Shown here: positions 4,318 through 29,403 of the stretch, in pieces | How the letters are laid out: each line of letters opens with the position of its first letter | Numbering within the stretch: position 1 is the stretch's first letter | NCBI GenBank assembly: GCA_017743475.1 | Contig: JAGHYV010000054.1 | Coordinates: 1-32,099, forward strand | DNA length: 32,099 nt | Reading direction: 5' to 3' | Origin: Roseiflexus sp. | GTDB taxonomy: Bacteria > Chloroflexota > Chloroflexia > Chloroflexales > Roseiflexaceae | The notes under the pieces: generated by a model | Databases searched by the model: none | What the model saw: only the letters and a program-made list of their open reading frames with translations | Told to the model about the DNA's origin: nothing | Position numbers and translations under genes: made by a program

Positions 4318-5582
4318 CAGTAATTCCTCCTGAGACGATTGCGCAGCAGAATTGCAGTTGCGTTAAGCGCCAGCAGCGTGACGAGCAGCACGATAATTGC
4401 CGCTGCCGCGATGCTGCGGAATTGCGCACCGGGTTGCGAGGTCCAGTTATAGATCTGGATCGGGATCACCGTAAATTTATCGAAGACGCTATCGGGAAAG
4501 AACACAACGAACGTTGATGCGCCGATAACAATCAGTGGCGCCGTTTCACCCATCGCGCGCGAGGCGCTGAGGATCGTGCCGGTCAGAATGCCGGGAAGCG
4601 CATTTGGCAGTACGTGATGCCAGACCGTCTGCCACTTTGTCGCTCCCAGACCATACGATGCCTGACGGAGTGACTGCGGCACGGCGCGGATCGCTTCGCG
4701 GGCATTAATGATCATCAGCGGGAGAACCAGCAGCGCCATGGTCAGCCCGGCGGACAGGATGGTTCGTCCGTTCGAGTCGGTGACGCCAAACATCGCGCCG
4801 CTGGTGAATGATTCGAGTGCGCGCACAAAGACTGCCAGCCCCAGAATGCCGTAGATGATCGAAGGCACACCCGCAAGGTTATTGATGTTGGTCTCGATCA
4901 AACGGTAGTACCAGGTATCGCTGGCATACTCTTCCAGATAGACGCCGCCAAGAATGCCGATGGGAATGGCGAGCAGCATCGTGATCGCAATCACCCAGAG
5001 CGATCCCAGGATCGCATTGCCGACACCCGCCAGAATGGGAACACTGCTCATCGGGCGGGTGAGAAATTCGCGGTTGATCCACGAATGGAACTCCAGTTTA
5101 GCGCGCGGGAAGCGCTCGCGAACAGTCGCTTCGATCCGCTCGCGTTCGAGCAACGACTCGGTCAGTTTATACGCAGCGACCACCTCACGACCAACCACGC
5201 GCTCTTCGACCAGTTGCAGAACGCTCTCTTTCGAACGTTCACTGAACGGCTCATCACGGTCGAAGCGTCGGAACAGTCCGGCGGAAACATTCGCGCGCAG
5301 GATTTCGATCAACTCTTCCTTCGACAACTCCTCGAGCGGTCGACCGCCCGTCAATTCCTCCGGGTCAACCTTTGTTTGGACTGCAATATAGCCAAACGTA
5401 TCGTCCACGATGGTATAGATCAACGTAGCCAGCGCCAGCAAGCCGATAATCAACGATGAAACGAAGATTGCCTGCCAGATAGCGCCGCGGAGACGGCGCG
5501 CCGCGATATTGCGATTAATATCCGCACCTTCCGGCAGATAACCGGTTGGCCTATCGCGCTGATCCATCGATTGTGCGCTCAT
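4317..5582 (-). CDS. pstA: Phosphate ABC transporter permease PstA with large inserted domain
   Basis: Second membrane subunit of the Pst channel, 421 residues. PstA is usually about 280-300. The extra length is an inserted, highly charged, probably helical segment of about 110 residues (roughly 70-180) between the first membrane helix (about 35-60) and the core permease domain. That places it outside the membrane if the first helix is inserted normally. The core has the expected helices and coupling loop [19 protein letters not shown] followed by SRAMGETAP. The start overlaps the pstC2 stop by four bases (ATGA) and the stop overlaps the pstB start by one base, so pstC2-A-B are tightly coupled. 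Confidence 0.94.
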
Positions 5583-18810: not shown

Positions 18811-19269
18811 TACTTTTCCTCCTTGAAATGAGCAGGCAGTCCTTCTTATATTAGTGACGCCAGTTACAATCTTGCCGTGCGTGTCTGGGATGCCGCTGTA
18901 ACGATAGCGCTCTTCCACGCATGGGTTCCTTCAGTATACCCGATGTTTCTTTGCACTACATGAGCAGGCAGGGAAGAAGTTTCCAGAATCTGAAAGGGAA
19001 CAGTCTTCCACACCCTTCAACGCGCAACACGCAACGTTCACGTTCAACGTTCAACACGCAACCTTCAACGTTCAATCTTCAACGCGCAACCTTCAACCTT
19101 GCAACCTCAACGTTCAACCTTCTTCAACCTTCGACGTTCACCCCACGCTCCGAAATCCGCCATGCGGCGTATCACAGCATAGCCGACAGGCAGACGCGCA
19201 CGGCTGCGCGCAGCGCTACACTCGCAGCAGCAGCGTCCAAAAGCGCCGCCAATAAGTGAGGAGCATGGT
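18811..19269. other. 459-bp divergent intergenic region with a heptamer repeat array
   Basis: The region separates aceB (minus) from the sugar aminotransferase operon (plus) and must hold both promoters. It contains the TTCAACG-type array at 19015-19143. No coding sequence is supported. Short frames through the array are low-complexity (Thr/Phe/Asn) and not gene-like. Confidence 0.5.
19015..19143. repeat. Degenerate heptamer tandem array (TTCAACG/CGCAACC type)
   Basis: About 18 units of seven bases follow one another, with consensus [T/C][T/G]CAA[C/T][G/C/A]. Examples are TTCAACG, CGCAACA, TTCAACC and TTCAATC; a few units are 6 or 8 bases long. The array has strong strand bias: C-rich and almost free of G except before C. 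It lies 127 bases before the aminotransferase start. Confidence 0.8.
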
Positions 19270-20493
19270 ATGGCAATGCGTATCCCAATGTCTTCCCCCG
19301 ATATCAGCGATGCAGAAGTGCAGGCTGTCGTTGAGACGCTGCATACCCCGACGTTGAGTATCGGTCCGCGCCTCGAGGCGTTTGAACGTGCCGCTGCTGC
19401 TGTTGCTGGCGTTGAGTGGGGCATCGGTGTCAATTCTGGCACAAGCGGGCTACATCTGTGCATTATCGCTGCCGAGATCAGTGATGGCGATATGGTTGTT
19501 ACCACGCCGTTCTCGTTCATTGCCTCAGCGAACTGCATCCTGTATGAGCGCGGCGTGCCGGTGTTCGTGGATGTTGACCCGGCGACAGGGAATATCGACC
19601 CGCATCTGGTTGCATCTGCCGCTGCCGATCTGATGCGCGGCGGCGTGAGCGCTGATCGCTGGTTGCCGCCTGCCCTGCGCGGCATCCGCCGACCCGAAGG
19701 ACGATTACGCGCATTGCTGCCAGTGCACGCCTTTGGTCAGCCCGCCGATATGGACCCATTGCTCGACACTGCTCGCAATGCCGATCTGGTAGTGATTGAA
19801 GATGCGTGTGAGGCGATTGGCGCCGCATACAAAGGGCGACCCGCGGGATCGCTTGGCGATGCAGCCGTCTTTGCCTTTTATCCGAACAAACAGGTCACCA
19901 CCGGCGAGGGGGGCATGATTGTGACCAACCGCGAATCATGGGCGCATCTGTTGCGCAGTCTGCGCAATCAGGGGCGTGATGTCTTCGATGGCTGGCTCAA
20001 CCACACACGCCTGGGGTACAACTATCGCCTGGATGAACTGAGTGCCGCCCTTGGTCTGGTGCAGGTGAGTCGTCTGGAACAATTACTGGCGAAACGTGCT
20101 CGCGTCGCCGCCTGGTACAACGAACGACTGGCGGATCTAGAGCTGGTCGAGACACCGCGTATTGCGCCGACAACCACCTATATGTCGTGGTTTGTCTACG
20201 TGGTGCGCATTGTGCCGCCTGCCCGACGTGATACGGTGGTGCATCTGCTTGCAGAGCGCGGCATTCCTAGCCGCCCGTATTTCACTCCCATTCACCTGCA
20301 ACCGTTCTACCGTGAGCGGTTTGGTTACCGCGGCGGTGAGTTTCCGGTCACCGAGCATTTGGGTGCAGTGTCGCTTGCGCTGCCATTCTCAGGAGTAATG
20401 ACCGAAACACAGGTTGATGTGGTGTGTGAGGCGCTGCGCGATGCTGTCGAGCGCAGCATCGCACTGCCGGTGACCAGAGGAGCATCACGATGA
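19270..20493 (+). CDS. DegT/DnrJ/EryC1/StrS-family sugar aminotransferase
   Basis: PLP-dependent enzyme that adds an amino group to a nucleotide-linked keto sugar, 407 residues. The cofactor Lys is K207 in FAFYPNKQVTTGEGG, with the ring-binding Asp in VVIEDACEAIGA (about 178). NSGTSGLHL (55-63) binds the phosphate, and RLGYNYRLDELSAALGL marks the second-subunit segment. GAGGAG stands about 9 bases before the ATG; an in-frame ATG at 19276 is possible. It is first of five genes and overlaps the following dehydratase gene by four bases. The pair (4,6-dehydratase plus aminotransferase) is what is needed to make a 4-amino-4,6-dideoxy sugar such as a bacillosamine precursor. Confidence 0.93.
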   Translation: MAMRIPMSSPDISDAEVQAVVETLHTPTLSIGPRLEAFERAAAAVAGVEWGIGVNSGTSGLHLCIIAAEISDGDMVVTTPFSFIASANCILYERGVPVFVDVDPATGNIDPHLVASAAADLMRGGVSADRWLPPALRGIRRPEGRLRALLPVHAFGQPADMDPLLDTARNADLVVIEDACEAIGAAYKGRPAGSLGDAAVFAFYPNKQVTTGEGGMIVTNRESWAHLLRSLRNQGRDVFDGWLNHTRLGYNYRLDELSAALGLVQVSRLEQLLAKRARVAAWYNERLADLELVETPRIAPTTTYMSWFVYVVRIVPPARRDTVVHLLAERGIPSRPYFTPIHLQPFYRERFGYRGGEFPVTEHLGAVSLALPFSGVMTETQVDVVCEALRDAVERSIALPVTRGASR

Positions 20494-22439
20494 TGCAGCG
20501 ACTTCAAAACCGGCATTTTCTCCTTTTCGATATCCTGCTGGTGCCGCTTGCAATCTATCTGAGTTTCGTCCTACGGCTGGAAATGTTCGATCTCCGCAGT
20601 TACTGGCAAGCATGCGTACAGTTCTGCCTGACAGCGGTCGTGATCACCCCACTGGCGTTTCGTGCACTGGGGATCTACCGTCGCTACTGGCGCTACGCTT
20701 CGTTTGAAGAACTGCTGCTGCTCTGTAGTGCAACATCGATTGCGCTGGCGCTTGCCACGCTTGTGTTTACCCTGATCGACGCGCTCTTGCCAATGGTGGC
20801 AACGATGCCGCGCTCCATTCCTTTCATCGTGCCGCCTATTGCAGCCACGCTCGTCAGTGTGCCGCGGTTGCTGGTGCGCATCGGTGCAGCGCGCGAGCGT
20901 CGGCGTCGTGCAACCGACCGACCGGCACCGGTATTGATCATGGGCGCTGGCGATGCTGCGTCGATTATTGTACGCGAGATTCAGCGCAATCCAAAACTCG
21001 GTATGGAAGTCGTCGGGCTGCTAGACGACGATCCGGCGAAGCATGGGCTGCGGTTGCATGGCGTCGAAGTGATGGGTGACCGCCACGCTATTCCAGCGCT
21101 CGTAGCTCGCCACAAGGTGCGTCAGGTGATCATTGCGATGCCAGGCGCACCCGGTAAGGCGGTGCGCGAGATTATGCATATTTGCGAATCCGTTGGTGTG
21201 GCGGTGCGCATCATGCCTGGCGTTCACGAACTGATCGATGGGACGATCAGCGTCAGCAAACTGCGCAACATCCAGATCGAGGACCTGCTACGCCGTGCGC
21301 CAGTGCAAACCGATACCGCTGCAGTGCGTGCACTGGTCGCCAACCGACGGGTCCTGGTAACCGGCGGCGGCGGCTCTATCGGTAGCGAACTATGCCGTCA
21401 GTTGATCCGCTTCGGTCCATCGCACCTGATCGTGCTCGGTCATGGCGAAAACAGTGTGTTCGAGATCTGCAACGAACTTCAGCGCCCGGCAGAAGCGCAC
21501 GCCGATCAATCGCCGCGCATTGTGCCGGTGATCGCCGATATTCGCGATCTGGATCGCCTGCGCGCAGTGTTCGAAGCGCATGCGCCCGAACTCGTTTTTC
21601 ACGCAGCCGCGCACAAACATGTTCCGCTGATGGAGGAACATCCGGTTGAAGCCATCAGCAACAATGTCATCGGTACGCGCAACCTGCTTGACGTATCACT
21701 GGAAACCGGCATTGAACGGTTTGTGATGATCTCATCGGATAAGGCAGTCAACCCGACGAGCGTTATGGGCGCAACCAAGCGCATCGCCGAGATGCTGGTG
21801 CTCCACACTGCGCGGATCAGCGGACGACCCTACGTGGCGGTGCGTTTTGGAAACGTGCTAGGCAGTCGTGGCAGTGTCGTGCTGACCTTCAAACGGCAGA
21901 TTGCCGCTGGTGGACCGGTAACGGTCACACATCCGGAGATGCGTCGCTACTTCATGACCATTCCCGAAGCAGTGCAACTGGTACTCCAGGCGTCGGTACT
22001 GGGTCACGCTGGCGAGATTTTCATGCTCGACATGGGGGAACCTGTGAAGGTGGTCGATCTGGCGCGTGACATGATCCGTCTGTCGGGGTTGGAGGTCGGG
22101 CGTGATATTGATATCTGCTTTACCGGCATACGTCCGGGTGAGAAATTATTTGAAGAATTGTTCGCCCACGGCGAAGAATATCAGCCAACAGCGCACAGCA
22201 AAATCTTTGTTGCCGCTGGTGCCAGCAACAATATTCCGCCTGACTTGCGTGCGGATGTGGCACTGCTCGAACAGATTGCACGCACGAACGACGATGCTGC
22301 TGCACGACGCATGCTGCGCCACATCGTCCCGGAGTACTGTCCGCCATTGCCTGCCCCGCCGATACCCGTCGCCGAAAACGCGTCCTATGCTGTGCTGGTG
22401 CGTCCGTTGCAACCCCTGATCGAGGGTGGACGAAGATGA
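20490..22439 (+). CDS. Membrane-bound nucleotide-sugar 4,6-dehydratase/epimerase (CapD/FlaA1/PglF type)
   Basis: Large polysaccharide or glycan biosynthesis enzyme, 649 residues. Four N-terminal membrane helices (about 11-30, 43-62, 75-98, 108-127) include the family segment GIYRRYWRYAS. A CoA-binding-like Rossmann domain (VLIMGAGDAASIIVREI, from 148) follows. The catalytic extended-SDR domain starts VLVTGGGGSIGSE (288-300). The catalytic region ISSDKAVNPTSVMGATKR (414-431) has the family pattern with Lys418 and Met426, in place of the classic YxxxK. PglF, WbpM and CapD are relatives that act on UDP-GlcNAc, but the exact sugar cannot be read here. Its start and stop both sit in ATGA overlaps with the flanking genes. 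Confidence 0.93.
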   Translation: MMQRLQNRHFLLFDILLVPLAIYLSFVLRLEMFDLRSYWQACVQFCLTAVVITPLAFRALGIYRRYWRYASFEELLLLCSATSIALALATLVFTLIDALLPMVATMPRSIPFIVPPIAATLVSVPRLLVRIGAARERRRRATDRPAPVLIMGAGDAASIIVREIQRNPKLGMEVVGLLDDDPAKHGLRLHGVEVMGDRHAIPALVARHKVRQVIIAMPGAPGKAVREIMHICESVGVAVRIMPGVHELIDGTISVSKLRNIQIEDLLRRAPVQTDTAAVRALVANRRVLVTGGGGSIGSELCRQLIRFGPSHLIVLGHGENSVFEICNELQRPAEAHADQSPRIVPVIADIRDLDRLRAVFEAHAPELVFHAAAHKHVPLMEEHPVEAISNNVIGTRNLLDVSLETGIERFVMISSDKAVNPTSVMGATKRIAEMLVLHTARISGRPYVAVRFGNVLGSRGSVVLTFKRQIAAGGPVTVTHPEMRRYFMTIPEAVQLVLQASVLGHAGEIFMLDMGEPVKVVDLARDMIRLSGLEVGRDIDICFTGIRPGEKLFEELFAHGEEYQPTAHSKIFVAAGASNNIPPDLRADVALLEQIARTNDDAAARRMLRHIVPEYCPPLPAPPIPVAENASYAVLVRPLQPLIEGGRR

Positions 22440-23413
22440 GCAATATGATGGTCAATACGCCCGTGCTAGACAACACTGACGTCCATCTGATGCACAGCGA
22501 ATGTCTGCCACAGGGTGCATCGCTACCGGTTGAACCGCTGCTGACGCTGGCTGCCACATCGCCGACAGCAGCGGCGGAACTGGCGCAACAGTATGTCACC
22601 GCGGTTGATGCTGTTCGACTGTCGACCGATCTGGAAACTGCCATTGAACTCCTGATGCGCGTAACGGACGTGTGCGTCGGAACGCTAGGCGAAACCCACC
22701 CGGCGATAGGTGCACTGCGCTGCCGGTTAGGCGATCTGTTGCTGGCAGAGCGACGCCTGGAACAGGCGCGGCAGCAGTACGAAATCGTGCTGGCAGCGCA
22801 CCGTCCCAGTGTGTTCGGCGATAGCGACGCTATTGCCCGCGCTCTCAGCGGTCTGGGAGATGTGCTGCGCACCGAACGCAAATATGTTGCAGCGCTAATA
22901 TGTCTGCAACGAGCGCTGCGGCGCCAGTCTGAAGCGCACGGCGTCCACCCTGCGACCGCGCAGACGCACACCCGTCTCGGCGCGCTCTGGTTCGAGCAGC
23001 AACGCTACGCTACGGCACGGCTTCACTTCCAGGAAGCGCTGGCAATCCGCGAAGCGACCCTGGGACCGCGCGATCCGGCAACTGCCCAGAGTCTGCATAA
23101 CCTCGGCATCACGCTGGTGGCGCTTGGTGATCTGTGGAGTGCGCGGGTATGCCTAGCGCAGGCGCTGGCGATCCGCGAGGATCGGTTGGGGCGTACCCAT
23201 CTGGCGACGGCGCAAAGCCTGGAGGCGCTCAGTCGTGTGCTGGCGGATCTTGGTGATGACGAGAGCGCACAGTACTGTCTCGAGCGCGCCGCCGCGCTCT
23301 ATCGTCAACATTCAGGGGACGATCGTCCAGCCAGTGCTGCGTTTGCAGTGCAGGTGAATCATCGGCGGCGCGGCGGCGCGCGCTGGATGAGTCTGTTGCG
23401 GAGGGGATCATGA
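22436..23413 (+). CDS. Tetratricopeptide-repeat protein
   Basis: 325 residues, no signal peptide or membrane helix seen. From about residue 75 to 285 it is built of roughly five 42-residue kinesin-light-chain-type TPRs. Examples are LGALWFEQQRYATARLHFQEALAIREATLGPRDPATAQSL (split here only by repeat boundaries) and LGITLVALGDLWSARVCLAQALAIRE. Such repeats are protein-protein docking surfaces. The C-terminus is basic (NHRRRGGARW, ending LLRRGS). It sits between the dehydratase and the small secreted protein in the five-gene operon, with ATGA overlaps on both sides. A scaffold that connects the glycan and sortase branches is plausible but unproven. Confidence 0.85.
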   Translation: MSNMMVNTPVLDNTDVHLMHSECLPQGASLPVEPLLTLAATSPTAAAELAQQYVTAVDAVRLSTDLETAIELLMRVTDVCVGTLGETHPAIGALRCRLGDLLLAERRLEQARQQYEIVLAAHRPSVFGDSDAIARALSGLGDVLRTERKYVAALICLQRALRRQSEAHGVHPATAQTHTRLGALWFEQQRYATARLHFQEALAIREATLGPRDPATAQSLHNLGITLVALGDLWSARVCLAQALAIREDRLGRTHLATAQSLEALSRVLADLGDDESAQYCLERAAALYRQHSGDDRPASAAFAVQVNHRRRGGARWMSLLRRGS

Positions 23414-23958
23414 AACGTATCTCAGCAGTGCGCATTGGGCTGTTTCTGGCGCTCTGCCTGCTTTTCAGCAGCGCAGTGGCGGAAGAACGCCCGACAACTG
23501 TGTCGCTGTCAACTGAACTATTAACCGTACTGGCAGATGTCGAAGGGCTGGGTCATCGTATGACCGGGGTCTACATCATTCGCCGCGCAACCGATGGCAG
23601 CGGCAGGGTATTCTGGAGATTCCGCGGCATGCTCGACGGTGAGTTCGAGGAGGTCGATGGCGAAGCGTTCGAGCGCTGGTCGCTCGATGGTGACGTGACG
23701 GTTGAGTTGACGAAGTTCAATTATCCAAATTTCACGCTTGATAAGTTGCCTGCACGTCGTATGACCCTGATGCCGGGTTGGGATGGGTTGATTGTGATCG
23801 CTGGCGTGCCGCTGGCAGTCAAGGGTGAATTCAAAGCACCGACAGCAGGCAGTTCGCCGGTGCTGGTGGTGACCAATGCCGGTCGTGGTGCGCGCGTTAT
23901 TACTGAACTGCCGAATACAGCGGGATCGCCTAATCTGGAAGGAGTACAGCAGCCATGA
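23410..23958 (+). CDS. Small secreted protein with C-terminal LPNTAG motif, putative sortase substrate
   Basis: 182 residues; I do not recognise the domain. Residues 1-24 are a clear signal peptide (MKRIS, hydrophobic core, then SSAVA before EE), giving a mature protein of about 158 residues. The mature part is rich in alternating hydrophobic/charged stretches that suggest beta strands (RVFWRFRGMLDGEFEEVDGE, later GLIVIAGVPLAVKGEF). Residues 167-172 are LPNTAG, matching the LPNTA recognition sequence described for class D-type sortases, and a sortase gene overlaps its stop codon. The usual hydrophobic helix and basic tail after the motif are missing; only ten residues follow. It has no cysteines in the mature region that I can see. 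Chance occurrence of the motif cannot be excluded. Confidence 0.75.
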   Translation: MKRISAVRIGLFLALCLLFSSAVAEERPTTVSLSTELLTVLADVEGLGHRMTGVYIIRRATDGSGRVFWRFRGMLDGEFEEVDGEAFERWSLDGDVTVELTKFNYPNFTLDKLPARRMTLMPGWDGLIVIAGVPLAVKGEFKAPTAGSSPVLVVTNAGRGARVITELPNTAGSPNLEGVQQP

Positions 23959-24671
23959 AGGGCCGGAACATTTCGATATTTTGGCATCACTCGTTCGTTA
24001 TGGTTGGCCTTGCAATCGCGCTGATTCTGCTCGGGATCGGTGCAGCGTATATGGTATGGTTGAATATGCTGCGCGACCAGGAACGACTCAACCCCTCCAC
24101 CGAACGCCTGCTGGAGGTCAGTGACGGTCAACGCATTCCTCTGGCGCAACCAGACCCGACACCGGTTCCAACTGCGGAAGCCGTTCCTGTTGCGGCGCCC
24201 GATCCGGGGAATACGCCAGAACCGTCCGCCACACTAGAAATGTTACCGCCAGAGCGCCTGATCATTCCGAGTATTAATGTCGACTGGCCCATCACACTGG
24301 CGGATGTTGATCACCTGCCGAAGTTCCGCGGCGTTGGATGGATATTCGGCAGCGCTTTTCCGGGTATGCCTGGCAACATGGTGCTGACCGGGCATGTTGG
24401 CGGACCATATGCAACACTGACGCACCTTCACCGGGTGCAACCGGGCGATGACATCCTGGTGCAAACTGAGGCGGCCATGCATCGCTACCGGGTCCAGACG
24501 ATCTACGAAACGACCCCCAACGACGTTCTGGCAATGGCGCCCAGCGATAAGACGATTGCCACGCTTATCACTTGTAGCGGCGACTGGATTCCAGAACGCC
24601 AGACGAACGAGCGTCGGTTGATTGTTGTGGCGGCATATGAGGGGATAGTACAGGAAGGCGGCAAGGGCTGA
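23955..24671 (+). CDS. Sortase (class D/E-like transpeptidase)
   Basis: Membrane-anchored cysteine transpeptidase, 238 residues, which would cut a secreted protein at a sorting motif and attach it to an amino acceptor. One N-terminal membrane helix (about 13-36) is followed by a Pro-rich linker (61-95) and the sortase barrel. The catalytic triad is complete: His147 in LTGHVGG, Cys207 in TLITCSGD and Arg220 in NERRLIVVA. LIIPSINVDWPI is the usual first strand of the barrel. The linker resembles those of class D/E enzymes, but I cannot fix the class by eye. Its start lies in an ATGA overlap with the LPNTAG protein, so enzyme and probable substrate are translated together. It is the last gene of the operon. 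Confidence 0.93.
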   Translation: MKGRNISIFWHHSFVMVGLAIALILLGIGAAYMVWLNMLRDQERLNPSTERLLEVSDGQRIPLAQPDPTPVPTAEAVPVAAPDPGNTPEPSATLEMLPPERLIIPSINVDWPITLADVDHLPKFRGVGWIFGSAFPGMPGNMVLTGHVGGPYATLTHLHRVQPGDDILVQTEAAMHRYRVQTIYETTPNDVLAMAPSDKTIATLITCSGDWIPERQTNERRLIVVAAYEGIVQEGGKG

Positions 24672-24838: not shown

Positions 24839-26020
24839 ATGGATCTTGACGACAAACTGGCCATTCTGGCGTCAGCGGCGCGTTTTGATGCGTGTGATCG
24901 CTTCCAGGGGAATCGGCGCGCCACGCTGCGCACGGCGCTGTGGGCCGATCACGCAATTGCTGCCGACGCCGACAGCGAAGGGCAGGCGCTTCCGATCTTC
25001 CGGTTATTGCTGAGCAATCGTTGCGAATGGAATTGCACCTACTGTCCGCTGCGCTCCGGAAACGACATGCCACGTGCGACACTGACGCCTGATGAACTGG
25101 AGCGCGTCTTTCTTCCCCGCGTCGGACGTGGTGCAGTGCAGGGGTTGCTCCTCTCCACCGGCGTCGATGGCAATCCAGCAGTTGCGACTGGTCGGATGCT
25201 TGATGCTGTCGAAATGCTCCGCACGCGCTACGGCTACAAGGGGTATGTTCATCTGAAACTGTTGCCTGGTGTGTCGGCTGCTGAAATCGAGCGTGCTGCA
25301 CGCCTCGCCAATCGCATCAGTCTCAACCTAGAAGCGCCAACTGCGGCGCATCTGGCGCGTATTTCGCCCGAACGCGACTGGCAGCGCGACCTGATCGCAC
25401 CGCTGACGCTGGCGCGTGACTGGAGTCGAACGGGTGCGATCAGTGCAGGGCTTGCCACGCAGTTCGTTGTGGGTGCAGCCGGAGAGAGCGACCGTGATCT
25501 GCTGGTGACGACCACCTGGCTCTACCGCGACCTGGCGCTGCGTCGGGTCTATTTTAGCGCGTTCCGACCGGTGATCGGCACACCACTGGAGAGTCGTTCG
25601 CCAACGCCTTTTGTGCGTGAGCAGCGTCTCCGTGAAGCAGACTGGTTGCTGCGACACTACGGCTTCGAGCAACAGGAACTCCCGTATGATCCTGACGGCA
25701 ACCTGCCGTTACACCTCGACCCGAAACTGGCGTGGGCGCTGGCGCACCCGGAACGTTTCCCAGTCGAACTGAACCGCGCCGACCGGGACGAACTCCTGCG
25801 CGTACCAGGATTGGGTCCGGTAAGCGTGGCGCGTATTCTTCGCCTGCGCCGCGAAGGGCGTTTCCGGGATCCGGATCATCTTGCTGCGCTGGGTAGGGCG
25901 CTCGCGCGCGCGCGTGACTTCATTACGCTCGATGGACGCTTTTTCGGGCGCACTGAACGTGATCGCCTGCGACACTATGCGCGCCAGTCGCCAATTGCCG
26001 AGCAGTTAACGCTATGGTAA
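24839..26020 (+). CDS. Radical SAM protein with C-terminal helix-hairpin-helix (putative DNA modification/repair family)
   Basis: 393 residues. The iron-sulfur cluster motif CEWNCTYC (Cys62, Cys66, Cys69) is the CxxxCxxC of radical SAM enzymes, which cleave S-adenosylmethionine to start radical chemistry. The barrel continues through LLLSTGVDGNPAVATGRMLD, ISLNLEAPT and FVVGAAGESDRDLL. The C-terminal part (about 305-345) is a helix-hairpin-helix, LNRADRDELLRVPGLGPVSV followed by ARILRLRREG, of the kind that contacts DNA backbone. This layout matches the family named putative DNA modification/repair radical SAM protein, often beside a uracil-DNA-glycosylase-like gene, which I do not see here. 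The true substrate is unknown. AGGTGAG precedes the ATG. It ends 24 bases from the convergent gamma-glutamyltransferase. Confidence 0.88.
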   Translation: MDLDDKLAILASAARFDACDRFQGNRRATLRTALWADHAIAADADSEGQALPIFRLLLSNRCEWNCTYCPLRSGNDMPRATLTPDELERVFLPRVGRGAVQGLLLSTGVDGNPAVATGRMLDAVEMLRTRYGYKGYVHLKLLPGVSAAEIERAARLANRISLNLEAPTAAHLARISPERDWQRDLIAPLTLARDWSRTGAISAGLATQFVVGAAGESDRDLLVTTTWLYRDLALRRVYFSAFRPVIGTPLESRSPTPFVREQRLREADWLLRHYGFEQQELPYDPDGNLPLHLDPKLAWALAHPERFPVELNRADRDELLRVPGLGPVSVARILRLRREGRFRDPDHLAALGRALARARDFITLDGRFFGRTERDRLRHYARQSPIAEQLTLW

Positions 26021-28407: not shown

Positions 28408-29403
28408 ATGTGGGCGCATTTGAATCTCTACCTCGATCCGGAAGATCCGGCATATTCCAACCCCTTGCGCCATGTTATGGCGCATTTGGGTGATTATACC
28501 GCCTTGATCGTGGAACCGCTCAAGATGCGCCTGACGGATGCAACCCTCGTGCGTGTGACGAACCAGCGCATTGAGGTGCGCCTGACAACTGCGACTCACC
28601 ATCTGCTGCTAGTCATTGCCCCTGAAGCAGATCTAGCGCACGAGGTCTTTTTCCTGCGCTCACTGGCAGCGTGCGACCTGCCAGCGCCGCGCCTGATTGC
28701 GTATGATCTGAGTTGCGCGAACGTTCCTTTCACCTATGCTATCGAAACCTATCCGGGCAGTCTGACGCTTGATTGTATCAACGATGCAACGCTTATGCGC
28801 ATCGCTGGGCGACAGACCGGACGAATACTTCGGCGGGTGCATCGTGTTGAAGCACCCGGTTATGGCGCGCCAACACCGACCGGTCGCTGGTCAGCGCGAA
28901 CGTGGCGCGAAGCGCTGGCAGGCTGGCTTGAGCAACGCAGTTTCAATAACCGGGCAGAAGCGGTGCTAGGCGCCGATATCACCTCTGCGCTCCGGGCTGC
29001 CACGCTCGATCATCCCACTCTGGCCTGCACCCAACCACGTGTTCTGCATGGCGCCGTCAAGCCTGCACACATCGTTGTCAGTATAGGCGAATCAGTGCAA
29101 CTCGAAGGTCTGGTTCAACCCGCTCGACCGGTAGGCGGCGATCCCTTGTTCGATCTGGCATACGTCCTCTCTTCACGCCAGTCGTCCGCGTTTCGGCGGG
29201 GAGTCCTGGAAGGGTATGAAATGGCGGGAATGCTGACCGCAGAGCAGCATGCGCGCATTGATCGTTTGCGCCTGCTGATCGATGTAACGCAGGCGCTCGA
29301 AGAAGGTGATCCGGCAGTGCTTGCCAGTCTTCCCGCTGCGATTATGGCGCGTCTGGATGCGTTAGGTGAAGGCATCGTGAACAGAGCGACGGTTGGTCAA
29401 TGA
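28408..29403 (+). CDS. APH-fold protein lacking kinase catalytic residues (pseudokinase)
   Basis: 331 residues with the aminoglycoside-phosphotransferase fold: an N-lobe with LAHEVFFLRSLAACDLPAPRL (79-97), then a helical C-lobe. The catalytic loop, normally HGDxxxxN, reads HGAVKPAH (214-221), so both the catalytic Asp and the metal-binding Asn are replaced. The Asp of the next metal-binding strand (usually IDW) is also missing (LEGLVQ), although GGDPLFDLAYVL (243-254) is normal. The nucleotide-binding Lys of the N-lobe is not obvious. It therefore probably binds rather than phosphorylates. The gene overlaps the GH57-like gene by an ATGA. Maltokinases share this fold, which would suit a glycogen context, but catalysis is doubtful. 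Confidence 0.75.
   Translation: MWAHLNLYLDPEDPAYSNPLRHVMAHLGDYTALIVEPLKMRLTDATLVRVTNQRIEVRLTTATHHLLLVIAPEADLAHEVFFLRSLAACDLPAPRLIAYDLSCANVPFTYAIETYPGSLTLDCINDATLMRIAGRQTGRILRRVHRVEAPGYGAPTPTGRWSARTWREALAGWLEQRSFNNRAEAVLGADITSALRAATLDHPTLACTQPRVLHGAVKPAHIVVSIGESVQLEGLVQPARPVGGDPLFDLAYVLSSRQSSAFRRGVLEGYEMAGMLTAEQHARIDRLRLLIDVTQALEEGDPAVLASLPAAIMARLDALGEGIVNRATVGQ

Follow-up and report, generated by a model that had tools for sequence, protein, structure and literature searches.

Dedicated pairs in which a sortase and its LPXTG-type substrate are encoded in one operon are known from Clostridium perfringens, whose SrtD is paired with an LPQTGS protein, and from Bacillus anthracis, whose SrtD is paired with LPNTA (PMC4498605). 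In the PEP-CTERM/EpsH (exosortase) system a sorting transpeptidase is genetically linked with the TPR protein PrsT and with genes for exopolysaccharide (PMC1569441). Our subject is a five-gene cassette at 19270-24671 (+ strand) of a 32,099-nucleotide contig of a Roseiflexus-type genome (G000:C60, the whole of which is the window referred to below), which encodes, in order, a sugar aminotransferase (AT), a sugar dehydratase (DH), a TPR protein, a small secreted protein (P4) and a sortase (SRT). This arrangement is a new form of dedicated sortase/substrate pair, one joined to a pathway for exopolysaccharide, and the reading that we favour, and hold to be somewhat probable, is that of a two-module operon in which AT and DH make a sugar for exopolysaccharide and a sortase-anchored P4 is made in step with it.

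Like the dedicated pairs, the cassette places a sortase beside a single secreted protein whose C-terminus bears LPxT, and the Ala or Ser that follows the Thr in P4 is reminiscent of class D, with its LPNTA preference (PMC4498605). It departs from those pairs in that P4 is without a hydrophobic segment and basic tail, the sortase is under all class cut-offs, and sugar genes are part of the operon. The likeness to PEP-CTERM/EpsH is at the level of gene neighbourhood, that is, a sorting enzyme and a TPR protein alongside exopolysaccharide genes; EpsH, however, is a polytopic, non-homologous enzyme whose substrates end in a PEP motif, a transmembrane (TM) segment and a basic tail, whereas the cassette has a PF04203 sortase, a cytosolic TPR protein and a P4 with no such ending, which places it outside the PEP-CTERM/exosortase systems. 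The sugar genes recall the Campylobacter Pgl pathway, with which the cassette genomes share four enzyme types (PglF, PglE, PglD and PglC), PglF being the closest match to DH in the PDB; the differences are that the stretches examined showed no PglB oligosaccharyltransferase, that the product would feed a Wzx/Wzy polymer locus, and that the genes are divided between two loci in most genomes.

A conserved five-gene unit

The five reading frames and four ATGA junctions on which the original prediction was built are real in the sequence, and its enzyme assignments (aminotransferase, CapD-type dehydratase and sortase) were borne out by Pfam matches. On the + strand, AT (19270-20493; PF01041, E 6.6e-102) encodes a DegT/DnrJ/EryC1 sugar aminotransferase of the PglE/perosamine-synthase type; DH (20490-22439; PF02719, E 1.4e-115) a membrane-bound UDP-GlcNAc 4,6-dehydratase of the PglF (retaining) type; the TPR gene (22436-23413) a TPR_12 repeat protein that, by Pfam and topology scans, has neither signal peptide nor TM segment and is predicted to be cytosolic; P4 (23410-23958) a Sec-secreted, lineage-specific protein of 182 amino acids (aa); and SRT (23955-24671; PF04203, E 1.9e-22) a membrane-anchored, unclassified sortase.

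With P4 as its marker, the cassette was found in five of the 158 genomes of the class, belonging to two genera (Roseiflexus and one sister genus). A phylum-wide search of 400 genomes gave strong P4 matches only in those same five, and a widened P4 profile added just two weak, unrelated matches beyond them. The order AT-DH-TPR-P4-sortase is present in all five (G000, G002, G003, G004 and G009), so that the check proposed with the original prediction, a search for the same order in other Chloroflexota, was answered by four more genomes. The five genes are thus a conserved unit across five genomes and two genera of Roseiflexus-type hot-spring bacteria, and the cassette has the look of an operon for surface building that is specific to this lineage, an unusual one in that P4 is without the membrane tail usual in proteins of its kind. 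A sixth genome, G005, has AT-DH-TPR on a contig that ends inside the TPR gene, and orthologues of the TPR protein are confined to the cassette genomes and G005. A seventh, G001, has the cassette sortase only as a shortened reading frame comprising the catalytic domain (L040 5091-5485, G001:C84), apparently what is left of a cassette that has decayed.

The sugar half and the exopolysaccharide operon

AT retains the lysine that binds pyridoxal phosphate (PLP; FYPNKQVTTGEGG), aligned to PDB 3bn1, and is 70% identical to a Chloroflexales aminotransferase that adjoins PglD and a PglF-like DH. The best PDB match of DH was PglF/WlaL (5bjw, 298 bits), well ahead of the UDP-GlcNAc C6 dehydratase 2gn4 (136 bits). 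Its active-site motif SSDKAV..T..MG.TKR is intact, and four hydrophobic segments stand at its N-terminus, with a CoA_binding_3 region N-terminal to the CapD-type Polysacc_synt_2 domain. The PglF match, the SDK...M...K motif and the N-terminal membrane region together point to a retaining dehydratase of the PglF type. No close PglF-type enzyme other than the cassette DH was found in G009.

The other members of a putative bacillosamine (di-N-acetylbacillosamine, diNAcBac) pathway, namely PglE, PglD and PglC, also appear to be present in the cassette genomes. PglD scored above its curated cut-off in all five and was absent above it in G005, although it is not exclusive to cassette genomes (G038 carries it too), and a PglC-like Bac_transf gene adjoins it where checked. 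The domains of the polysaccharide operon were scanned in G004 and G009, and PglC/PglD were also checked in G000. PglD lies in a Wzx/Wzy operon with a Wzz-tyrosine-kinase, a flippase, Wzy and several glycosyltransferases (GT), the PglC-like gene and PglD coming at its end. In G009 a single strand reads Wzz/tyrosine kinase, Wzx, GT, Wzy, GT, GT, PglC-like, PglD, DUF218, AT, DH, TPR, P4, sortase, with a gap of ~560 bp ahead of AT at which there may be a separate promoter. In G004 the exopolysaccharide operon is ~6 kb from the cassette on the same contig, and in G000, G002 and G003 it is elsewhere in the genome. Because PglD and the PglC-like gene end a Wzx/Wzy operon that in G009 runs into the cassette, AT and DH most likely supply the precursor for a bacillosamine-type surface polysaccharide; outside G009, we infer that the exopolysaccharide operon uses the same sugar.

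The cassette genomes also carry a paralogous AT-DUF218-DH set (e.g., L124 3-4154 in G000:C148, and L125, L127 and L130), and a DUF218 (ElyC-like) gene is also next after PglD in G002, G004 and G009.

P4 and the cassette sortase

P4 has no Pfam family and no significant PDB match. Its single hydrophobic stretch (residues 1-25) corresponds to a predicted Sec signal peptide (MKRISAVRIGLFLALCLLFSSAVA, 23410-23481, + strand, with a putative cleavage site), the segment ending AVA-EE. The LPNTAG motif (23908-23925, + strand) stands ~12 residues before the end of the protein, and LP[ND]T[AS] recurs in all five homologues (LPNTA, LPNTA, LPDTS, LPNTS and LPNTA), within a conserved C-terminus of the form NAGRG...ITxLPxT; L, P and T are invariant and the residues after the motif diverge. 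AlphaFold models built with five sequences had a mean pLDDT of 50 for P4 and 48 for the sortase, too low for a fold search, and in its low-confidence model P4 may be beta-rich.

The sortase has one N-terminal TM segment followed by a Pro-rich linker, and alignment places its catalytic residues at His147 (LTGHVGG; 24393-24395), Cys207 (TLITCSG; 24573-24575) and the invariant Arg221 (24615-24617), all on the + strand. The PF04203 match, triad and anchor make it a member of the sortase superfamily, but it falls below every class cut-off of NCBIfam; the closest models are those of classes E and C, the best class E score being 59 bits against a cut-off of 160. G000 encodes four sortases besides this one.

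Within the order, the related C171-type sortases, which are ~28-38% identical to that of the cassette, are likewise each adjacent to a dedicated substrate in which LPxT is followed by S, A or D: these neighbours mostly have an LPxT[S/A/D]xG sorting tail (LPNTSAG, LPATSTG, LPETSAG), ending RxHRARxRI or similar, and in them, as in P4, the residue after the Thr is mostly other than Gly. Unlike P4, these substrates are of 440-820 aa, fully tailed and downstream of the sortase, and no sugar genes are linked with them in the stretches that were seen. The pair is found Chloroflexales-wide (L055 5602-8520, L201, L204, L206, L210-L214 and others).

A further comparison came from G105, a genome of a distant family of the class, in which a P4-like protein is followed by a sortase (L198/L221, G105:C77, 170-1622) and the sugar genes are absent. 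The P4-like protein aligned with P4 over AGVPL...ITxLP (hhalign E 1.9e-5) and reads LPGA where P4 has LPNT, and in its sortase the catalytic His and Cys are both replaced (GARAG; TLITDAG). Searched against the 400 phylum genomes, this dead sortase matched the five cassette sortases best, and a tree also groups it with them (95/81; long branches). The joint loss of the Thr and of catalysis is as expected for an enzyme-substrate pair. Thus, because LPxT is invariant, the C171-type neighbours use LPxT[S/A/D] and G105 shows this co-loss, P4 may be a substrate of the cassette sortase.

Several other sortase arrangements were noted. In another family of the class, sister-group sortases (L203, L200, L205, L220) read VLAGHRDI or VLVGHRDI around the His rather than GHAGL, and one has a neighbour with an LPKTGG tail, which suggests that they prefer a different substrate. 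In L240 1-1923 (G501:C7), repeat domains, LPGTGFAPG and a sortase domain are seemingly in one polypeptide with no sorting tail, and a 771-aa frame in G199 (L243) may resemble this fusion. A programmed frameshift or read-through joining P4 to the TM segment of the sortase was considered and rejected, since G004 and G009 lack the overlap and such a fusion would have the wrong topology. A genome-wide codon scan for LPNT[AG] gave counts about equal to those of a reversed-pattern control, i.e., no enrichment of LPNT.

Weighing the alternatives

A number of observations weigh against the two-module reading and are set out here beside the alternatives. The alternative that survives best, quite possible in our view though short of probable, is that the operon serves co-expression alone and places enzymes for envelope precursors under shared regulation with a sortase pair, the two having no biochemical link. 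The halves are indeed separable modules: AT and DH occur without a sortase in the paralogous AT-DUF218-DH locus of the cassette genomes and beside PglD in Chloroflexales, and the P4-sortase module is independent of the sugar genes, because the G105 pair stands without them. A necessary joint function, as originally proposed, is not supported by these cases. Nor is coupling that is "strict", for the ATGA overlap of AT with DH (20490-20493) is retained in five of six genomes and that of P4 with SRT (23955-23958) in three of five, being replaced by a gap of 107-131 bp in G004 and of 12 bp in G009. Four overlaps are in any case no proof of strict coupling, because overlaps of 4 bases are common in prokaryotes (~15% of codirectional gene pairs overlap in most groups; PMC6728339) and the same window holds two more (5579-5582 and 29400-29403); among the ATGA overlaps, only the occurrence of four in a row is notable. 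What speaks for a closer tie is that the DH-TPR (22436-22439; 6/6) and TPR-P4 (23410-23413; 5/5) overlaps persist without exception in the genomes examined, making these the most conserved junctions, and that the five genes stay together although their flanks differ among the genomes where they were compared. On the sugar side, the two-module reading must also accommodate G000, G002 and G003, in which PglC/PglD are far from the cassette and could be fed by the paralogous AT-DUF218-DH set, and G005, which keeps AT-DH-TPR and shows neither PglD over the cut-off nor P4/sortase, its contig ending inside the TPR gene.

It is rather doubtful that P4 is no sortase substrate at all, its LPxT being coincidental or structural, and that the sortase anchors other, tailed LPxTG proteins, P4 being secreted as a partner of the sortase or of polysaccharide assembly, or as a regulator of either. 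After LPxT, every P4 homologue has only ~12 polar residues, with no hydrophobic segment and no basic tail, and because these are absent from all of them P4 is not an LPXTG cell-wall sorting signal protein by the strict definition. Thus, of the LPNTAG protein and sortase originally described, the juxtaposition of a sortase and a secreted LPxT protein stands and the classical LPXTG substrate does not. A tail-less P4 could be released before it meets the sortase, and several tailed LPRTGG/LPATS proteins, with true tails such as LPRTGGESS...LVLRRRLA and LPATSTG...RLHRARSRI, are encoded in the same genomes. The motif alone is weak evidence, because LPxT occurs within the last 25 residues of ~0.7% of unrelated proteins in a background set; the cassette aminotransferase itself ends ...ALPVTRGASR. 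The LPxT of P4 also adjoins a conserved block and so could be structural, and the co-loss is known from one case, G105, which is an incomplete metagenome-assembled genome. Set against all this, P4 and the sortase are neighbours in every case, the distant G105 included; all five homologues share L, P and T but differ in the residues that follow, and the T is gone where the sortase is dead; and the four other sortases of the genome are available for the tailed proteins.

Far weaker is the idea, put forward in the original prediction, of a sugar-bearing acceptor, in which an amino sugar of a surface glycan, its 4-amino group left free, would be the nucleophile and P4 would be coupled to a polysaccharide or glycoprotein fibre: sortases do require a primary amine (PMC4498605), and sugar and sortase genes share one operon in five genomes and, in G009, one run with a full Wzx/Wzy locus, but this is very improbable given that PglD, which would acetylate that amine and so probably block it in the finished sugar, occurs in each of the five cassette genomes and in G009 belongs to the same gene run, that G105 has the P4-sortase pair without sugar genes, and that no precedent was found in the open literature. 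We consider it just as improbable that the sortase is a protein-to-polysaccharide ligase acting on soluble, tail-less P4 and attaching it covalently to the polysaccharide that its own gene run produces, with P4 a terminal or bridging capsule protein; a covalent protein-polysaccharide link is, in short, unlikely. The glycosylated surface fibre that had also been suggested is conceivable, but the stretches examined showed no pilin, and there was no oligosaccharyltransferase in the cassette or in the scanned polysaccharide loci of G004 and G009 (the whole genome was not searched).

Flanking features

Just 5' of the operon, the window has degenerate 7-base tandem repeats (CAACGTT/CAACCTT) at 19013-19122. 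Downstream of the cassette sortase is a radical SAM gene (TIGR03916 type) at 24839-26020; a homologue in G027 (L048 5837-9053) closely follows another, unrelated sortase, with a VWA gene in between. No RNA elements were found in a scan for them, and a promoter/terminator scan gave signals no more frequent than in shuffled sequence.

A model of the cassette and its significance

In the two-module reading, AT and DH would make a nucleotide-linked 4-amino-4,6-dideoxy-GlcNAc (the PglE and PglF steps), PglD would acetylate this amino sugar, and the PglC-like phosphoglycosyltransferase would load it onto a lipid carrier, starting a surface polysaccharide. P4 would be exported by Sec, and the membrane-anchored sortase would recognise its C-terminal LP[ND]T[AS], cut after the Thr and join P4 to an amino group of the envelope, most likely that of a peptidoglycan stem; both the identity of the substrate and the acceptor are what we infer. 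P4 would then be a small wall-bound protein, produced in step with the polysaccharide layer, and the TPR protein may be a cytosolic scaffold or regulator.

The architecture of the Chloroflexota envelope is debated, and sortase biology in the phylum is almost undescribed. The open literature yielded no report of a sortase-bacillosamine operon, of Roseiflexus sortases, or of work on LPXTG proteins in Chloroflexi that was on point. The P4-sortase pair raises two questions, namely whether an exported but soluble substrate can be captured by a sortase in vivo, and what it is then joined to. If the tail is dispensable, then substrates have gone unnoticed in motif searches that insist on a TM tail. 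The cassette as a whole parallels the link between exosortase and exopolysaccharide in Gram-negative bacteria, with an unrelated enzyme.

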